From an uncultured bacterium (GTDB lineage Bacteria > Desulfobacterota_D > UBA1144), in the NCBI GenBank assembly GCA_913050325.1, contig CAJWZP010000001.1, positions 65,611 through 129,610 of the forward strand: a DNA stretch of 64,000 bases. Reading direction: 5' to 3'. A program made the position numbers and the translations under genes. Below are positions 15,014 to 23,987 of the stretch, in pieces. Position 1 is the stretch's first letter, and every line of letters starts with the position of its first letter. The notes beneath the pieces are model-generated. The model was not told the DNA's origin. It made no database searches and was given only the letters and a program-made list of their open reading frames with translations.

Positions 15014-16024
15014 ATGAAAAAACTTAATGTCGGTGTGCTGGGATGTTCTGGTTACACAGGAATTGAATTACTGAAAATATTAGATATTCATCCTAATGTA
15101 AAATTAATTTTTTTAGGTTCAAATAGTAAAATTGGAATAAAAGCAGAAGTTTTACATTCTGGATTTAAAAATATTAATAAGAAAATTGTTAGAAATAATT
15201 CCTTAATATCAAAAGTTAAGGACCTAGACGTATTGTTTTCATGTCTACCAAACGGAGAATTGGCTAAAAATTTTAAAAAATTTACATCTAATAAAAAAAT
15301 TAAAATAATTGATCTAAGTGGGGATTTTAGACTTCCTAACTCATTAAATAAAAAGTGGTACAAGACAAAAAGAAATGACGATTTATTCAAAACATTTCAA
15401 TACATTCTCCCAGAATTAAACCAAAATAAAATTAATAAAAATAGGAATATATCAAATCCTGGATGCTATGCTACATCAATTATATTAGGAATTGCACCAA
15501 TAATCTCATCGTTAAATAAACAGAGTATTTTAATAGATACAAAATCAGGAATATCCGGTGCAGGTAAAAATAATAATATTGATTACATATTTAATGAAGC
15601 AAATGAAAATTTAAGTATATATAATGAGGGAAACCATAGGCATATGCCTGAGATCGAAAACTTTATTGCTAAAAATTATAAAAAGACTTTTAAAATTATT
15701 ATGATTCCTCATCTATTACCTTTAACAAGGGGAATTTTATCTAATATTTATGTCGATTTGAATCAAGAAATAACTGAAGATAAGGTTCTAGAAAAGTATA
15801 TAAATTTTTATAAAAATAATACTTTTATAAAAATTTCTAATAAAATTCCTTCTATTAAAGATGCAGTTAGAACAAACAATTGTTTAATAGGTATTAGAAA
15901 ATTTAAAAATACAAAAACTTTAATGGTAACAAGTGTAATAGATAATTTAATAAAAGGTGCATCAGGACAAGCAGTACAAAATATGAACCTGTTGTTTAAT
16001 TTGGATGAAGAATTAGGATTGTAA
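15014..16024 (+). CDS. argC: N-acetyl-gamma-glutamyl-phosphate reductase
   Basis: [39 protein letters not shown]. Confidence 0.96.
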
Positions 16025-16654
16025 TTTATTTATTTTATCTATCAAGGCATCTATTTTTTTATTTATTGTTAACATATCTTCACCCGTTGGATCGGGAAGT
16101 TTATTATGAAATAAGTCTGGACCACTTGAAGTAAATTCTTTATTTACTACTTTCCCAGGTATACCCACAACTGTTGAATTCTCAGGTATGTCATCAATAA
16201 CAACAGAATTTGCTCCAATTTTTGTATTCATTCCTATCTCTAGTGGACCTAAAACTTTACTTCCTGCTCCTATAATTACATTATCATTAATTGTGGGATG
16301 CCTCTTTCCCTTACTTGAACTTATTCCACCAAGTGTAACTCCTTGATAGATAGTTACATTCTTTCCAATATCAGTCGTCTCACCAATTACTACTCCCATT
16401 CCATGGTCAATAAAAAAACCAGAACTAATCCTTGCACCAGGATGAATTTCTATACCAGTAAAAGTCCTTATGATATTAGATATAATCCTACCAACTAATT
16501 TTAATCCAATGTTCCAAAGAAAATGTGAAATACGGTGCCACATTATCGCATGAAAGCCAGGGTATGTAAGTAGTACTTCTAAAATATTTCTGGCTGCTGG
16601 ATCTCTATCAAAAACAGCATTCATATCACTTTTAATATTTTTAAATAAATTCAT
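16013..16654 (-). CDS. cysE: Serine O-acetyltransferase
   Basis: [50 protein letters not shown]. Confidence 0.96.
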
Positions 16655-16679: not shown

Positions 16680-17867
16680 TTAATTTTCAAAAACTTTTAA
16701 ATAGTCATATGAAGTAGATCTTTCGACAGGTCTTCTATTAATCTCAAATGTAAGCTTTCTAAATTCCTCAGGTGGGAAATATTGTCCGAATTTACCACCT
16801 GCGGCTGTTGTTATCTTTTCTTCCATTAATGTTCCACCAAAGTCATTTGCACCCGCTTTTAAACAATATTGTGCAAATTCTGGTCCTTGTTTTACCCAAG
16901 AAACCTGAATATTATTAATTATATTTCTAAAATACAACCTTGAAACGGCATACATTTTTAATTGATCTAAATCTGTAGGTCCCTCTCGTGATATACCTCT
17001 TTTATAAAGTCTTGTGTCCCAGGGAATAAATCTTAATGGTACAAATTCGGTAATTCCTTTAGTTTCTTTTTGAATTTGCCTAATCACCTCAAAATGTCTA
17101 GCCCAATGAAAAGGTTTATCAACATGTCCATACATTATAGTTGATGTTGTTTTCATTCCTGCTTTATGAATTTCTTTAATTGTATCAACCCATTGATCAG
17201 TAGTAATTTTTCCAGGAGCAATAATTTTTCTTACATCTTCACTTAAGATTTCCGCTGCAGTTCCAGGAAAGGTTCCATGACCTACATCTTTTAACATTTT
17301 TACAAACTCACCTATTGGCATTTTCAAAGAGTTTGCTCCGTAATGAACTTCAAAAGGTGAGAAGCAATGTGTATGCATGTCTGGTACAGCTTCTTTTACG
17401 CTCTTTATAATTTGAACATAAAAATTACCGTCTATATCAGGATGCATTCCACCCTGCATACAAACTTCCGTTGCACCATTTTCTCTAGCTTCATGAACTT
17501 TTTCTTTAATTTCATCCATTGTTAAGAAATAAGCTCTTGGATCACCCTCAGGTGCCATAAAGTTACAAAATCCGCAATATGTATTACATATATTAGTAAA
17601 GTTAATATTTCTGTTTACAACATAAGTTACATCATCACCAACATCTTCTTTTCTAGCTAGGTCAGCACCGATCACTAGTGATGATAAATCATTCACATCA
17701 TCAGTTAAAAAAAGTTTTTCAGCTTCTTCTTCTTTAATTTCTTTTCCTAGAAAAGGCTTTTCGATTATATTAGCAATTTCTTTATTAGATTTTGCAAGTG
17801 TAGCCTCAAAACCTGTTTCTCGATTTTCCTCAATTACACTAATAATATCTTTTAATTTATCATCCAT
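16680..17867 (-). CDS. cofH: FO synthase subunit 2 (5-amino-6-ribitylaminouracil--tyrosine 4-hydroxyphenyl transferase)
   Basis: Radical SAM FTNICNTYCGFCNF, CMQGGMHPDIDG; in F420 gene cluster. Confidence 0.93.
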   Translation of the reverse strand: MDDKLKDIISVIEENRETGFEATLAKSNKEIANIIEKPFLGKEIKEEEAEKLFLTDDVNDLSSLVIGADLARKEDVGDDVTYVVNRNINFTNICNTYCGFCNFMAPEGDPRAYFLTMDEIKEKVHEARENGATEVCMQGGMHPDIDGNFYVQIIKSVKEAVPDMHTHCFSPFEVHYGANSLKMPIGEFVKMLKDVGHGTFPGTAAEILSEDVRKIIAPGKITTDQWVDTIKEIHKAGMKTTSTIMYGHVDKPFHWARHFEVIRQIQKETKGITEFVPLRFIPWDTRLYKRGISREGPTDLDQLKMYAVSRLYFRNIINNIQVSWVKQGPEFAQYCLKAGANDFGGTLMEEKITTAAGGKFGQYFPPEEFRKLTFEINRRPVERSTSYDYLKVFEN

Positions 17868-17873
17868 TTTCTA

Positions 17874-19133
17874 TTAATCCTCTCTAACAAATCCTGTATC
17901 ATCAACAAAATTTAGAGCTTTTTCATAGATGTGCTTTTCTATGTAATTCTGTGATAAATATTCTGGATATACAGGTAACCTCTCTCTTAAATTAAAACCA
18001 AATTCTAATATAGTATCCTGCATTAAATCAATTTGGGGCCAAGGTGACTCAGGATTGACATAATCAATTGTTATTGGAGAAACACCACCTAAATCATTAA
18101 CACCCGAGAAAACATGAAGCATATATGATTTTGAATTTAAATTTGGAGGTACTTGAATATTAACATTGTTTGACATTATCATTCTCGACAGAGCAACTGT
18201 TTTAATCATATCTAAATCAGTTGGAACTGGTTGGCCCTCCATTTTAATACCTGGCTTAGGATTAAAATTTTGAATAATAATTTCCTGTATGTGACCGTAC
18301 TCAGTATTGATTCTATTTAATTCTAAAATTGAATCTACTCTTTCTTCCCAATTTTCACCTATACCAATTAAAATTCCTGAAGTCCATGGTATTTGTAATT
18401 CTCCTGCGTTACATATTGTTTTTATTCTTGCTTTTGGGTATTTGTCTGGACATCTGTAGTGCGCCATTCCTTCATCCATTAATCTTTCACTTATACTCTC
18501 AAGCATCAAGCCCATGCTAGGGTTTGAATTTTTAAATCTTAATAATTCATCTTGATTGGCAATTCCTAAATTTGAGTGCGGAAATATATTCTCCTCCAAG
18601 CAAAGCTCGCTCATAGAAATCATATAATCTGCTGTAGATTTATGTCCCATAGATTTTAATTTATCTCTATAAACCTCATAATCTCTTTCTGGCTTATCAC
18701 CCGATACGAATAATAATTCAGTGCAACCCAATTCTGCGGCTTTTTTGGCAGATTCTAAAACATCTTCAGGCTCAATTAGAAGAGCCCCTTCGCCTGGTTC
18801 AATTTTAAAAGTGCAATATGAACATTGATCCCTACAAAGTTGGGTTAAAGGTATAAAAACATTTTTCGAAAAACTTATTAAGTTCCCTTTTAAATTTTCT
18901 CTAATATTATTTGCTACACACATCAAAAATGAAACTCCACTAAGTGGCATTTGTGTTAGTGTTAGCAGTTCGTCTCGTGTAAGTTTTTTTTCATTTAGAA
19001 ATTTTTCAAGTAAGTAAACAAATTTATTATCAATTGATTCAATTTTATTAATAGGGATTGAATGTGATGTCAATAATTCACGTATATTATCATTAGTTGA
19101 AAAGTTTTCATGTAATTTTGCTAAAGATATCAT
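17874..19133 (-). CDS. cofG: FO synthase subunit 1 (7,8-didemethyl-8-hydroxy-5-deazariboflavin synthase)
   Basis: Radical SAM FIPLTQLCRDQCSYCTF, IIQNFNPKPGIKM; in F420 gene cluster. Confidence 0.93.
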   Translation of the reverse strand: MISLAKLHENFSTNDNIRELLTSHSIPINKIESIDNKFVYLLEKFLNEKKLTRDELLTLTQMPLSGVSFLMCVANNIRENLKGNLISFSKNVFIPLTQLCRDQCSYCTFKIEPGEGALLIEPEDVLESAKKAAELGCTELLFVSGDKPERDYEVYRDKLKSMGHKSTADYMISMSELCLEENIFPHSNLGIANQDELLRFKNSNPSMGLMLESISERLMDEGMAHYRCPDKYPKARIKTICNAGELQIPWTSGILIGIGENWEERVDSILELNRINTEYGHIQEIIIQNFNPKPGIKMEGQPVPTDLDMIKTVALSRMIMSNNVNIQVPPNLNSKSYMLHVFSGVNDLGGVSPITIDYVNPESPWPQIDLMQDTILEFGFNLRERLPVYPEYLSQNYIEKHIYEKALNFVDDTGFVRED

Positions 19134-19863
19134 CTTCTCTCGACCTAATTAATTTCTTTATTCCTTTTTTAATAAAAGAATAATTATACCCCCTTATGAT
19201 AACTACTGGAATACCTAGGTTTTTAATCATTAAAAGTCCCCCTGCGGAACTTAATTCATCAATTACTGGTACATCCGTATCGAAAAGCTCGTTTCCATAA
19301 AGGTCAATATTATATGATACCACAGATGGTAATCCATAACTCCCAATAGCTATTTGTGTTAATCCGTTTCTCCATGGTCTACCTACACTGTCACTTATGA
19401 TAATTGAAGTATTTATATCAAATTCATCTAATATTTTTATGCTAATTTCTTTGGCCGATTTATTAGCATTTCTTGGCAATAGTAAAGCTTTTTCATCTCC
19501 TGAAATATTAGATTGGTCAACACCTGCATTTGCGGCAATTACTCCATATTTATCTCTTGTTAATATAAATTTTGGGTTTATTTTGATTAATTCTTTTGAT
19601 TCATTGATTATTAATTGAATTATTCTTGGATCTTTTTCCACTATTTTACTCAAAGTTTTAGCTTTTGAGGAAACTCTAATATCTGATAATTCTACTGTTC
19701 TACCTTCAGAAATTGAAATAATTTTATGAGCTATTACGAAAATATCATTTTCTTTGATAGTAATTTTATTTCTTTTAATACATTTTACTATCTCATCACC
19801 AATGTTAACTTTCTGTTTTATATGAGGGAAGTTTTTTAAAGGTATTATTTCAATTTTTTTCAT
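19108..19863 (-). CDS. cofE: Coenzyme F420-0:L-glutamate ligase, single-domain
   Basis: IEIIPLKNFPHIK, DIFVIAHKIISISEGR, IIISDSVGRPWRNGLTQIAIGSYG. Confidence 0.93.
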   Translation of the reverse strand: MKKIEIIPLKNFPHIKQKVNIGDEIVKCIKRNKITIKENDIFVIAHKIISISEGRTVELSDIRVSSKAKTLSKIVEKDPRIIQLIINESKELIKINPKFILTRDKYGVIAANAGVDQSNISGDEKALLLPRNANKSAKEISIKILDEFDINTSIIISDSVGRPWRNGLTQIAIGSYGLPSVVSYNIDLYGNELFDTDVPVIDELSSAGGLLMIKNLGIPVVIIRGYNYSFIKKGIKKLIRSREDDIFSKIT

Positions 19864-19864
19864 A

Positions 19865-20797
19865 TCAAAAATCCATAACTTCCAAAATTTTCTCTGCTAA
19901 ACCAATAGAAACTGTTTTATGATCCATTTTTATATTTTCAAATATGCAGTGGATATTTAAATCCTTAATTTTATCTAACAAGTCCTTATCGCTTTTATCA
20001 AGCACAATATAATCAATAATATTTTTATAATATTGCCCAATCCCAACAGGTGAAGCTTCTAATCCTTTAAATTTAAGTAATTTCATTATAGGACCTTGAA
20101 AGGCAAAATTACCAATAATTGGAGAAATTGCAATTTTTTTAGCTTTTGAAGATTCAATAGCGCCTCTAATCCCATCCATTGTAAGTATTGGCTCAACACT
20201 AATAATTGGATTACTTGGACAAAAAATTATCAAATCTGCATTCAGTATATTGTCTATCAAGCCCTCAATTGGTTTTGAATTCATTATATTTCTGAATTCA
20301 ATACCTCTGATTTGAGGGCTCATACGATATTTAATCAAATATTCTTGGATGTGCATGTCGCCTAAATCTGAATTTATATAAGTTTCTACTTTGTCATTTG
20401 TCATTGGAAAAATGGAAATATGATTAATATTTAATTTAGTTGTTTTAATTTTAATTGTTTCATCTAATTTTAAGTTGTTGTCTAAATATTTTTTCTTTTC
20501 AAGATTAAATTCAAAATCTTTATCGCCAAGGTTAAACCAAGATGAATCAAAATTTTTAATCATATTAAAAGTATCATCTTTTATTCCCCATCCTCTTGAC
20601 GGATCTACCAATCCAGAAATCCAATAGAGTACTGAATCAATATCAGGGCTGACTCTAACTCCATAAATATCAATATCATCAGATGTATTAACATAAACAT
20701 TAATATTTAAATCTTTTCGAAACTCATAAAGACCACTAAGAAACTTTCCTCCTCCAACTCCACCACCAAAGGTTAAAACTTTCTTGTGATTTGACAT
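19865..20797 (-). CDS. cofD: 2-phospho-L-lactate transferase (or paralogous PEP/3PG-type transferase)
   Basis: LTFGGGVGGGKFLSGL, VNTSDDIDIYGVRVSPDIDSVLYWISGLVDPSRGWGIKDDTF. Confidence 0.93.
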   Translation of the reverse strand: MSNHKKVLTFGGGVGGGKFLSGLYEFRKDLNINVYVNTSDDIDIYGVRVSPDIDSVLYWISGLVDPSRGWGIKDDTFNMIKNFDSSWFNLGDKDFEFNLEKKKYLDNNLKLDETIKIKTTKLNINHISIFPMTNDKVETYINSDLGDMHIQEYLIKYRMSPQIRGIEFRNIMNSKPIEGLIDNILNADLIIFCPSNPIISVEPILTMDGIRGAIESSKAKKIAISPIIGNFAFQGPIMKLLKFKGLEASPVGIGQYYKNIIDYIVLDKSDKDLLDKIKDLNIHCIFENIKMDHKTVSIGLAEKILEVMDF

Positions 20798-21074: not shown

Positions 21075-23036
21075 ATGAACACAATAATACGGTTAGTTTT
21101 AATTCTTACAGTTTTTTCAAATTTAGCATATAGCTCAAGTATTGAATTAACAAGTCCAAATAAAATAGGTAATACGACTATTAAGACCCAAAGATTTGGT
21201 GGGTCAACAACTATAATTACTGAGGATGAGATAAAAACATCTGGAGCTCAAAGCCTGGGTGATTTATTGAAACAAGTTCCTGGATTGTCAGTTAAACAAA
21301 CAGGAGGAAGAGGTGGTCTTATTAGTATTTTTTCAAGGGGTAATGAATCAGATCATAATCTTGTAATAATTGATGGAGTAAAACAAAATGATGTTGGTGG
21401 ATCATTCAATTTTGAATATTTATCAATAAATAATATTGAATCAATCGAAGTATTAAGAGGACCTATGGCAGGTTTCTTTGGTTCCTCTGCTTTAGGATCT
21501 GTAATTATTATCAATACAAAAAGGCCAAGTGATAAAACAGAAATTTCTTTAATGAACTCATTTGGATTTAATCAAAGTTTTAAAAAAGATACTGTCGGTC
21601 AAACTGACGGTGGCATATTCTTTGTAAATGAACAAGCAATATCTGTTAGTGGTCCACTTAATAAAGATTCAAATGATATTAATATCGGATATATATTATC
21701 GTATGAAAGAATTGATGATGATGGATATAGAATATTTAATGATGCATTTAATAATAAAGTTTTAAATGCTGGTATTAATATTGTTGCACTAGATGATAAA
21801 TTAAAAATTCAAACTATGGTTTCAGACAGATGGGCAACCGTAAGATATCCTACAAGTAGCTCGGGAGGCGTTGGTGCATATTCATCTGTTTCAGGGACTC
21901 AACGAGATTGGAGACATCTTAATAGTAGAAGTATCAACACTAGTTATGAGATATATGAGAATAGTTCCTTAGGCTTTGATTTTTCTTATTTCTTTAACAA
22001 AAGAGTAACTAGAGATTCGGGAAGTGGTAACGTTGATTGGTGGGAAAAGAAAAAAACATATAATTATTATTATGAAATAGAAAATTATAATAATGATCTT
22101 ATAACTTTAGATGCAAAAATAGGATATGAATATTTGGATGAAACAAGTAACTATCATGCCAATGCTAGTTCGTTTGCAACTGATTATGGACATAATACCT
22201 ATATTGATTCTATATACTCTATGATTTCACTTAACTTTAATGATTCAGCTTTTGCGGATATAGGAATAAGAAAAGATGATCATGAATATCATGGTTCAAA
22301 ATATAATCCAACTGTGTTTTTATCAAGGTATATGTCATCTGAATTAAAATTAAGAGGTGGATATAGTCGAGGAATTAAGTATCCAGGAATTTATGAAACA
22401 TATAGTGCAACATCATTAGATCCAGAAGAAAGCGAATCTTATGAAATTGGTATGGACTATGAAAACACTTTGTATGCCTTATCATTAACATTATTCAAAA
22501 GTAAAACTGATAACATGATTGCTTACAGAAGTAGTGGTAGCCCAAGCTATAGAAACTTAGATGAAGCAAGGTCAAAAGGTATAGAAGTAAGTGGTTTGTT
22601 TAAACTTCAAAATGAATTATCAATAAAATATTGGTTAACTTATTTAGAAACTAAAGCAGTCAATGTAAACAATACTGTTCAACAGAATTCTTATAACTAT
22701 GCGAATTGGCAAGATGATGAAGCACTTTTAAGAAGGCCTAAAACATCTGGGGGATTAATTATTAGTAAAAGACATAATAATTTGTATGTTTCAGCTGATG
22801 CAAGTTATACCGGTGGTAGATGGGATTATCAAAATTCATCGACAAGACTATATAATGAATCTTTTTGGGATTTTGGTTTATATGGAGATTATCTGTTTAG
22901 TTCTGATGATTTATATCAAAGTAAGGTTTTTATTCAAGTATCTAACTTATTTAATGATAAAAGAGAAGAAATTTTAAACTTTACATCTCCAGGTAGAACC
23001 GCAATGATTGGCTTAAGATATGACACATCGAAATAA
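21075..23036 (+). CDS. btuB: TonB-dependent outer-membrane receptor, BtuB-type (cobalamin)
   Basis: Signal peptide, plug domain (GDLLKQVPGLSVKQTGGRGGLISIFSRGNESDHNLVIIDGVK), beta-barrel ending; downstream of B12 riboswitch. Confidence 0.9.
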   Translation: MNTIIRLVLILTVFSNLAYSSSIELTSPNKIGNTTIKTQRFGGSTTIITEDEIKTSGAQSLGDLLKQVPGLSVKQTGGRGGLISIFSRGNESDHNLVIIDGVKQNDVGGSFNFEYLSINNIESIEVLRGPMAGFFGSSALGSVIIINTKRPSDKTEISLMNSFGFNQSFKKDTVGQTDGGIFFVNEQAISVSGPLNKDSNDINIGYILSYERIDDDGYRIFNDAFNNKVLNAGINIVALDDKLKIQTMVSDRWATVRYPTSSSGGVGAYSSVSGTQRDWRHLNSRSINTSYEIYENSSLGFDFSYFFNKRVTRDSGSGNVDWWEKKKTYNYYYEIENYNNDLITLDAKIGYEYLDETSNYHANASSFATDYGHNTYIDSIYSMISLNFNDSAFADIGIRKDDHEYHGSKYNPTVFLSRYMSSELKLRGGYSRGIKYPGIYETYSATSLDPEESESYEIGMDYENTLYALSLTLFKSKTDNMIAYRSSGSPSYRNLDEARSKGIEVSGLFKLQNELSIKYWLTYLETKAVNVNNTVQQNSYNYANWQDDEALLRRPKTSGGLIISKRHNNLYVSADASYTGGRWDYQNSSTRLYNESFWDFGLYGDYLFSSDDLYQSKVFIQVSNLFNDKREEILNFTSPGRTAMIGLRYDTSK

Positions 23037-23054
23037 ATAAATTAAACTGATTCA

Positions 23055-23987
23055 ATGAAAATCATATCTCTAATTCCTGCTGCAACCGAGGTTCTTTACG
23101 ATCTTGGCCTTGCGGATAATATTTATGGTATTACAGATGAATGTAATTACCCAAGCAATGTTCATGATAAAAATATTGTTTGTAATATTAAAATCGATTT
23201 GAAAAATCTCAAAAACATTGAAATAGAAAACGAGATACTTAATATGGTCAAAAATGGTGAATCACCATATATAGTTGATGAGGATAAAATCAATGAAATT
23301 AATCCTGATTTTATAATCACACAAGAATTATGTAATGTTTGTGCGGTTTCAAAAAATGAAATCAAAAAAATTGATATAAAAAAGAAAATCATAGACTATT
23401 CTCCAAAAACTTTACATGATGTGCCGGAAATGATTTTTAATGTATCAAATATTTTAGGAGTCAAAGATGCAGGAAATGAAATCAGAAAAAATTTTCTTGA
23501 TTCCATAAATTTAATAAAAGAAAAAACATCATCAAATTTTGATAAACCTAGGGTTTTTGCAATGGAATGGTTAGATCCAATATATACAGCAGGTCATTGG
23601 GTTCCTGATATGATTGAGGTTTCGGGTGGAATATCTAAATTAAGTAAAAGCGGTGAAAAATCAAAAAAAATTAACTTTTCTAAATTAATAGAATATGCAC
23701 CAAATTACATTTTTGTGATGCCCTGCGGATATAATGTGGAAAGAACACTAAATGAGATAGATACTATTTTATCAAACAAAGAATTAAATAAAATTCCAGC
23801 TTTTAAAAATGGTCAAGTTTATATAGTGGATGCTGATTCATATTTTACAAGACCTTCAACCAGACTACTCGAAGGAATTAAAATACTAGCAAAAACTTTA
23901 CAACCATCTATATTTACATACGAAACCATACCAGATTCAGTAATAAACCTGCATAATTTCATACATTTTGAGTCTTTCTCTGGTTGA
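23055..23987 (+). CDS. BtuF-like cobalamin-binding protein lacking an evident signal peptide
   Basis: MKIISLIPAATEVLYDLGLADNIYGITDECNYP, ELCNVCAVS, EWLDPIYTAGHWVPDMIEVSGG; immediately downstream of btuB. Confidence 0.85.
   Translation: MKIISLIPAATEVLYDLGLADNIYGITDECNYPSNVHDKNIVCNIKIDLKNLKNIEIENEILNMVKNGESPYIVDEDKINEINPDFIITQELCNVCAVSKNEIKKIDIKKKIIDYSPKTLHDVPEMIFNVSNILGVKDAGNEIRKNFLDSINLIKEKTSSNFDKPRVFAMEWLDPIYTAGHWVPDMIEVSGGISKLSKSGEKSKKINFSKLIEYAPNYIFVMPCGYNVERTLNEIDTILSNKELNKIPAFKNGQVYIVDADSYFTRPSTRLLEGIKILAKTLQPSIFTYETIPDSVINLHNFIHFESFSG

Follow-up and report, generated by a model that had tools for sequence, protein, structure and literature searches.

A very probable coenzyme F420 biosynthesis operon in a marine Dadabacterium, with cofC at a second locus

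F420 is a redox coenzyme that is widespread in Actinobacteria. The stretch of DNA analysed here (the window, 64,000 nucleotides) belongs to a draft genome of a marine Dadabacterium (16 contigs totalling 999,934 bases, completeness 92.7%), and it carries four consecutive genes that look like an F420 biosynthesis operon, while cofC is missing from it. The locus raises the question of whether these genes serve a working pathway, and if so, with which side chain and for which enzymes. We consider it very probable that they form a conventional, working F420 biosynthesis operon, with cofC at a second locus.

The cofDEGH operon and its surroundings

Four intact open reading frames, all with an ATG start and free of internal stops, lie tightly packed on the minus strand at positions 16680-20797. 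These are cofD (19865-20797, 310 aa), for the FO phospho-acid transferase; cofE (19108-19863, 251 aa), for a single-domain F420-0:L-glutamate ligase; and cofG (17874-19133, 419 aa) and cofH (16680-17867, 395 aa), for the two radical SAM subunits of FO synthase. The gaps between cofD and cofE and between cofG and cofH are 1 bp and 6 bp, respectively, and the frames of cofE and cofG share 26 bp. The initial annotation had read the four genes in the same way, with the same positions and spacing, and both the reading frames and the curated profile matches agree with it; they also bear out that CofG and CofH are two distinct frames and not a fused FbiC, and that CofE is without the nitroreductase-like domain of FbiB. 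Its description of the operon as complete holds for the FO core with CofD and CofE, but is overstated for the locus alone, as cofC sits elsewhere.

Genes were assigned using NCBIfam and Pfam profile cut-offs, together with PDB matches for CofD and CofE. CofG scores 431 bits against TIGR03550 (cut-off 213), and CofH scores 474 bits against TIGR03551 (cut-off 374) and contains the CofH_C domain PF19288; the CxxxCxxC motif reads CRDQCSYC in the former and CNTYCGFC in the latter. CofE is above the cut-off of TIGR01916 (208 bits, cut-off 181) and matches PF01996; in the PDB it finds the F420-0:gamma-glutamyl ligases 2phn and 7uld at E about 1e-31, and a nitroreductase domain of the FbiB type is absent from it. 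CofD is the weakest of the four assignments: at 245 bits it falls slightly under the cut-off of 257 of the equivalog model TIGR01819, and it is above the cut-off for PF01933 (134 bits, cut-off 30). Its best solved relative is the CofD of M. mazei (3c3d, E 3.9e-48), with the phosphoenolpyruvate transferase FbiA (6uvx) behind it at E 1.2e-34. The enzyme activities of all four products are predicted from these similarities.

The gene order around the operon is kept over ~20 kb in eight relatives, including the spacing, the flanks and the adjacency of a cysE-like gene; this excludes a chance arrangement, and also means that the operon is not a contaminant. The cysE-like gene (16013-16654, minus strand), directly downstream of cofH, encodes a serine O-acetyltransferase (TIGR01172, 247 bits, cut-off 211) that is possibly co-transcribed with the cof genes while standing outside the F420 pathway. 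We also considered recent acquisition, and reject it on composition: the operon has a GC content of 30.4%, compared to 28.9 +/- 2.0% for equal-sized stretches of the window, which is within the range of the window and gives no sign of foreign DNA. Divergent from the operon, at 21075-23987, are genes for a periplasmic binding protein (PF01497) and for a TonB-dependent receptor that best fits the profile of the B12 receptor; this region is likewise syntenic in relatives, and its products probably take part in cobalamin or siderophore uptake.

Alternative readings and the second locus

MqnC, MqnE and CofH are homologous and their profiles cross-match; CofH and CofG might therefore be misread enzymes of the futalosine pathway to menaquinone, a shift that the initial annotation itself had named as the danger to its FO call. 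The profile scores show no such shift. CofH, which is above its own cut-off, stays below those for MqnC (346 bits, cut-off 428) and MqnE (289 bits, cut-off 435), and CofG is above its own cut-off as well. Two other proteins of the draft pass the cut-offs for MqnC (444.5 bits, cut-off 428.1) and MqnE (442.6 bits, cut-off 434.55), so that the draft has futalosine-pathway menaquinone enzymes besides FO synthase; these true mqnC and mqnE genes lie on contigs C8 and C10 of the draft (L054:398-1468 and L055:402-1508). The scores and the separate paralogues together rule out a misassignment, to which we give next to no probability. It is also conceivable that the genes make only FO, as an antenna for photolyase, with CofD and CofE being relics or otherwise employed. 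This idea draws on one of the deeper genomes of the phylum (G009), where a photolyase gene (L051:7826-9205, PF00875 and PF03441) is found directly downstream of cofG-cofH; FO or F420 may act as a photolyase antenna in G009, and FO may also have this use in some members of the phylum. Against an FO-only role speak the undamaged cofD and cofE genes of the window, the packing of cofDEGH into a single operon in the marine members, and the conservation of both CofC and NpdG among relatives; we regard such a role as very unlikely.

That CofC is missing from the window, as pointed out in the initial annotation, is true, and a search beyond the window with PF01983 and TIGR03552 also finds none in the 92.7% complete draft. 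This could mean that the lineage is truly without CofC, and that CofD depends on some other nucleotidyltransferase for the activation of its phospho-acid. Yet CofC is above the equivalog cut-off in 48 of the 57 genomes of the phylum, and two genomes of the same genus (G045 and G046) carry it above cut-off. Six relatives within the family carry the gene in a block with the order dnaB, xth, cofC, a second copy of groES, and npdG; most genomes of the family have two groES copies, one of them between cofC and npdG (e.g. L026:3860-4165). DnaB (TIGR00665) is above cut-off in 10 of the 14 genomes of the family (f1), all 10 of which have cofC, and is not found in the remaining four (this draft, G000, and G044, G047 and G053), none of which has cofC (Fisher p = 0.001); in G047, the cofC search returned only a weak match (E 1.5e-4) in a 461-aa frame. 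In the same four genomes npdG is absent and groES is present in one copy or none, the second copy being the one that is missing, and the Xth protein of G046, used as a query, has no match in the draft. As dnaB encodes the replicative helicase and is essential, its co-absence with cofC from the same four genomes means that the lack of cofC in the draft is almost certainly an assembly gap. A true loss of CofC, which would have to strike exactly those genomes that are also without the neighbouring dnaB, second groES and npdG, is rejected on this co-absence and appears highly improbable. Read in this way, the missing CofC is no biochemical puzzle, and the split locus explains how drafts may seem to be without it.

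Predicted pathway, side chain and F420 clients

In a conventional F420 pathway with cofC at a second locus, CofG and CofH would convert tyrosine and the riboflavin precursor 5-amino-6-ribitylaminouracil to FO; CofC, encoded in the gap, would activate a phospho-acid with GTP, CofD would transfer it onto FO, and CofE would add glutamates. The coenzyme would then be reduced by the NADPH:F420 oxidoreductase NpdG and used by luciferase-like hydride transferases.

The nature of the phospho-acid can be approached through CofC, where Hasan et al. (PMC8764529) report that a Ser or Thr in the place of S162 of the M. rhizoxinica protein marks the use of 3-phosphoglycerate. In 17 of 17 aligned dadabacterial CofC proteins, a set from which the draft's own CofC is absent, this position holds a Gly, in the motif F-G-x-x-S, and 3PG-F420 is accordingly disfavoured. 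The C-terminal nitroreductase domain of FbiB (TIGR03553) is above cut-off in none of the 57 genomes, and in none of the control genomes either, which leaves this search without a positive control. Given the Gly at the diagnostic position and no FbiB-type domain above cut-off, the classical 2-phospholactate type of F420 is our leading reading of these sequences; as CofC assays cannot discriminate between 2-phospholactate and PEP as the in vivo substrate (PMC8764529), we put it no higher than that. The TIGR03553 result, with the same caveat on the controls, is consistent with the lower expectation that the initial annotation had of a PEP/dehydro-F420 route. It is nonetheless possible, if rather unlikely, that Dadabacteria start from PEP and either possess a dehydro-F420 reductase with no relation to FbiB or employ dehydro-F420 itself; this would amount to a non-standard F420 side-chain route in a phylum that includes streamlined ocean bacteria.

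The initial annotation saw no obvious F420-dependent oxidoreductase beside the operon, and we confirm that none adjoins it. The search of the genome for F420-binding folds that it proposed was productive for one class of proteins: the draft encodes four luciferase-like (LLM, Bac_luciferase) proteins. One of these is above the cut-off of the F420 subfamily model TIGR03619 (F420_Rv2161c); in the PDB, its closest match is a putative luciferase-like monooxygenase, followed by methylenetetrahydromethanopterin reductase. The other three have F420-type models (Mer-like or MSMEG_4879-like) as their best NCBIfam matches, at scores below the cut-offs, and F420-dependent alcohol dehydrogenase or methylenetetrahydromethanopterin reductase as their best PDB matches. 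Among PNPOx-type proteins no client of the FDOR type turned up, the two PNPOx_N proteins of the draft being PdxH and a PdxH-like protein. NpdG, the NADPH:F420 reductase, passes its cut-off in 46 of the 57 genomes of the phylum; in relatives a single groES copy separates its gene from cofC, and in the draft it falls in the presumed gap. The matches of the LLM proteins suggest that these hydride transferases may use the cofactor.

F420 in the Dadabacteria and comparison with known systems

CofH is found in all 57 Dadabacteria genomes searched, in 54 of them above cut-off. In eight deeper genomes of the phylum, cofG and cofH still adjoin, and just some of these genomes have cofD or cofE in the vicinity; among the genomes examined, the arrangement of all four genes in one operon typifies the window organism's own family. 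With CofH in 57/57 genomes and both CofC and NpdG in most, Dadabacteria appear to have F420 among their core cofactors; it is retained even in streamlined marine members with genomes of 1 Mb, and its role in ocean plankton becomes a testable question. That the phylum has F420 genes is already in the literature: a 2021 FEMS review names Dadabacteria among the candidate phyla whose genomes encode F420 biosynthesis (PMC8498797), while F420 goes unmentioned in the text of the principal genomic study of marine Dadabacteria (PMC8115339). The advance made here is one of detail and not of kind.

The closest known counterpart is the separate-gene cof pathway (CofC/D/E/G/H) of methanogens and some Gram-negatives (PMC8498797), which shares the five functions, the unfused CofG and CofH and the single-domain CofE, and whose M. 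mazei CofD is the closest PDB match of the CofD in the window. The differences are that here cofDEGH form one operon while cofC lies at a distance, by dnaB, groES2 and npdG in relatives, and that the host is a bacterium with a 1 Mb genome. The mycobacterial FbiABCD system (PEP/dehydro-F420) is alike in overall chemistry, and the Gly of dadabacterial CofC is that of M. tuberculosis FbiD; in contrast, a fused FbiC is absent here, and the FbiB nitroreductase domain is above cut-off in 0 of 57 genomes. Mycetohabitans rhizoxinica, with its 3PG-F420 pathway, is similarly Gram-negative with an unfused CofE and a CofC homologue, but its diagnostic Ser/Thr is replaced by Gly in all 17 aligned dadabacterial proteins. 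Finally, the streamlined marine Ca. Actinomarinales also keep the F420 pathway (PMC7771536), and resemble the Dadabacteria as small-genome plankton that retain it, although they belong to another phylum, the Actinobacteria.
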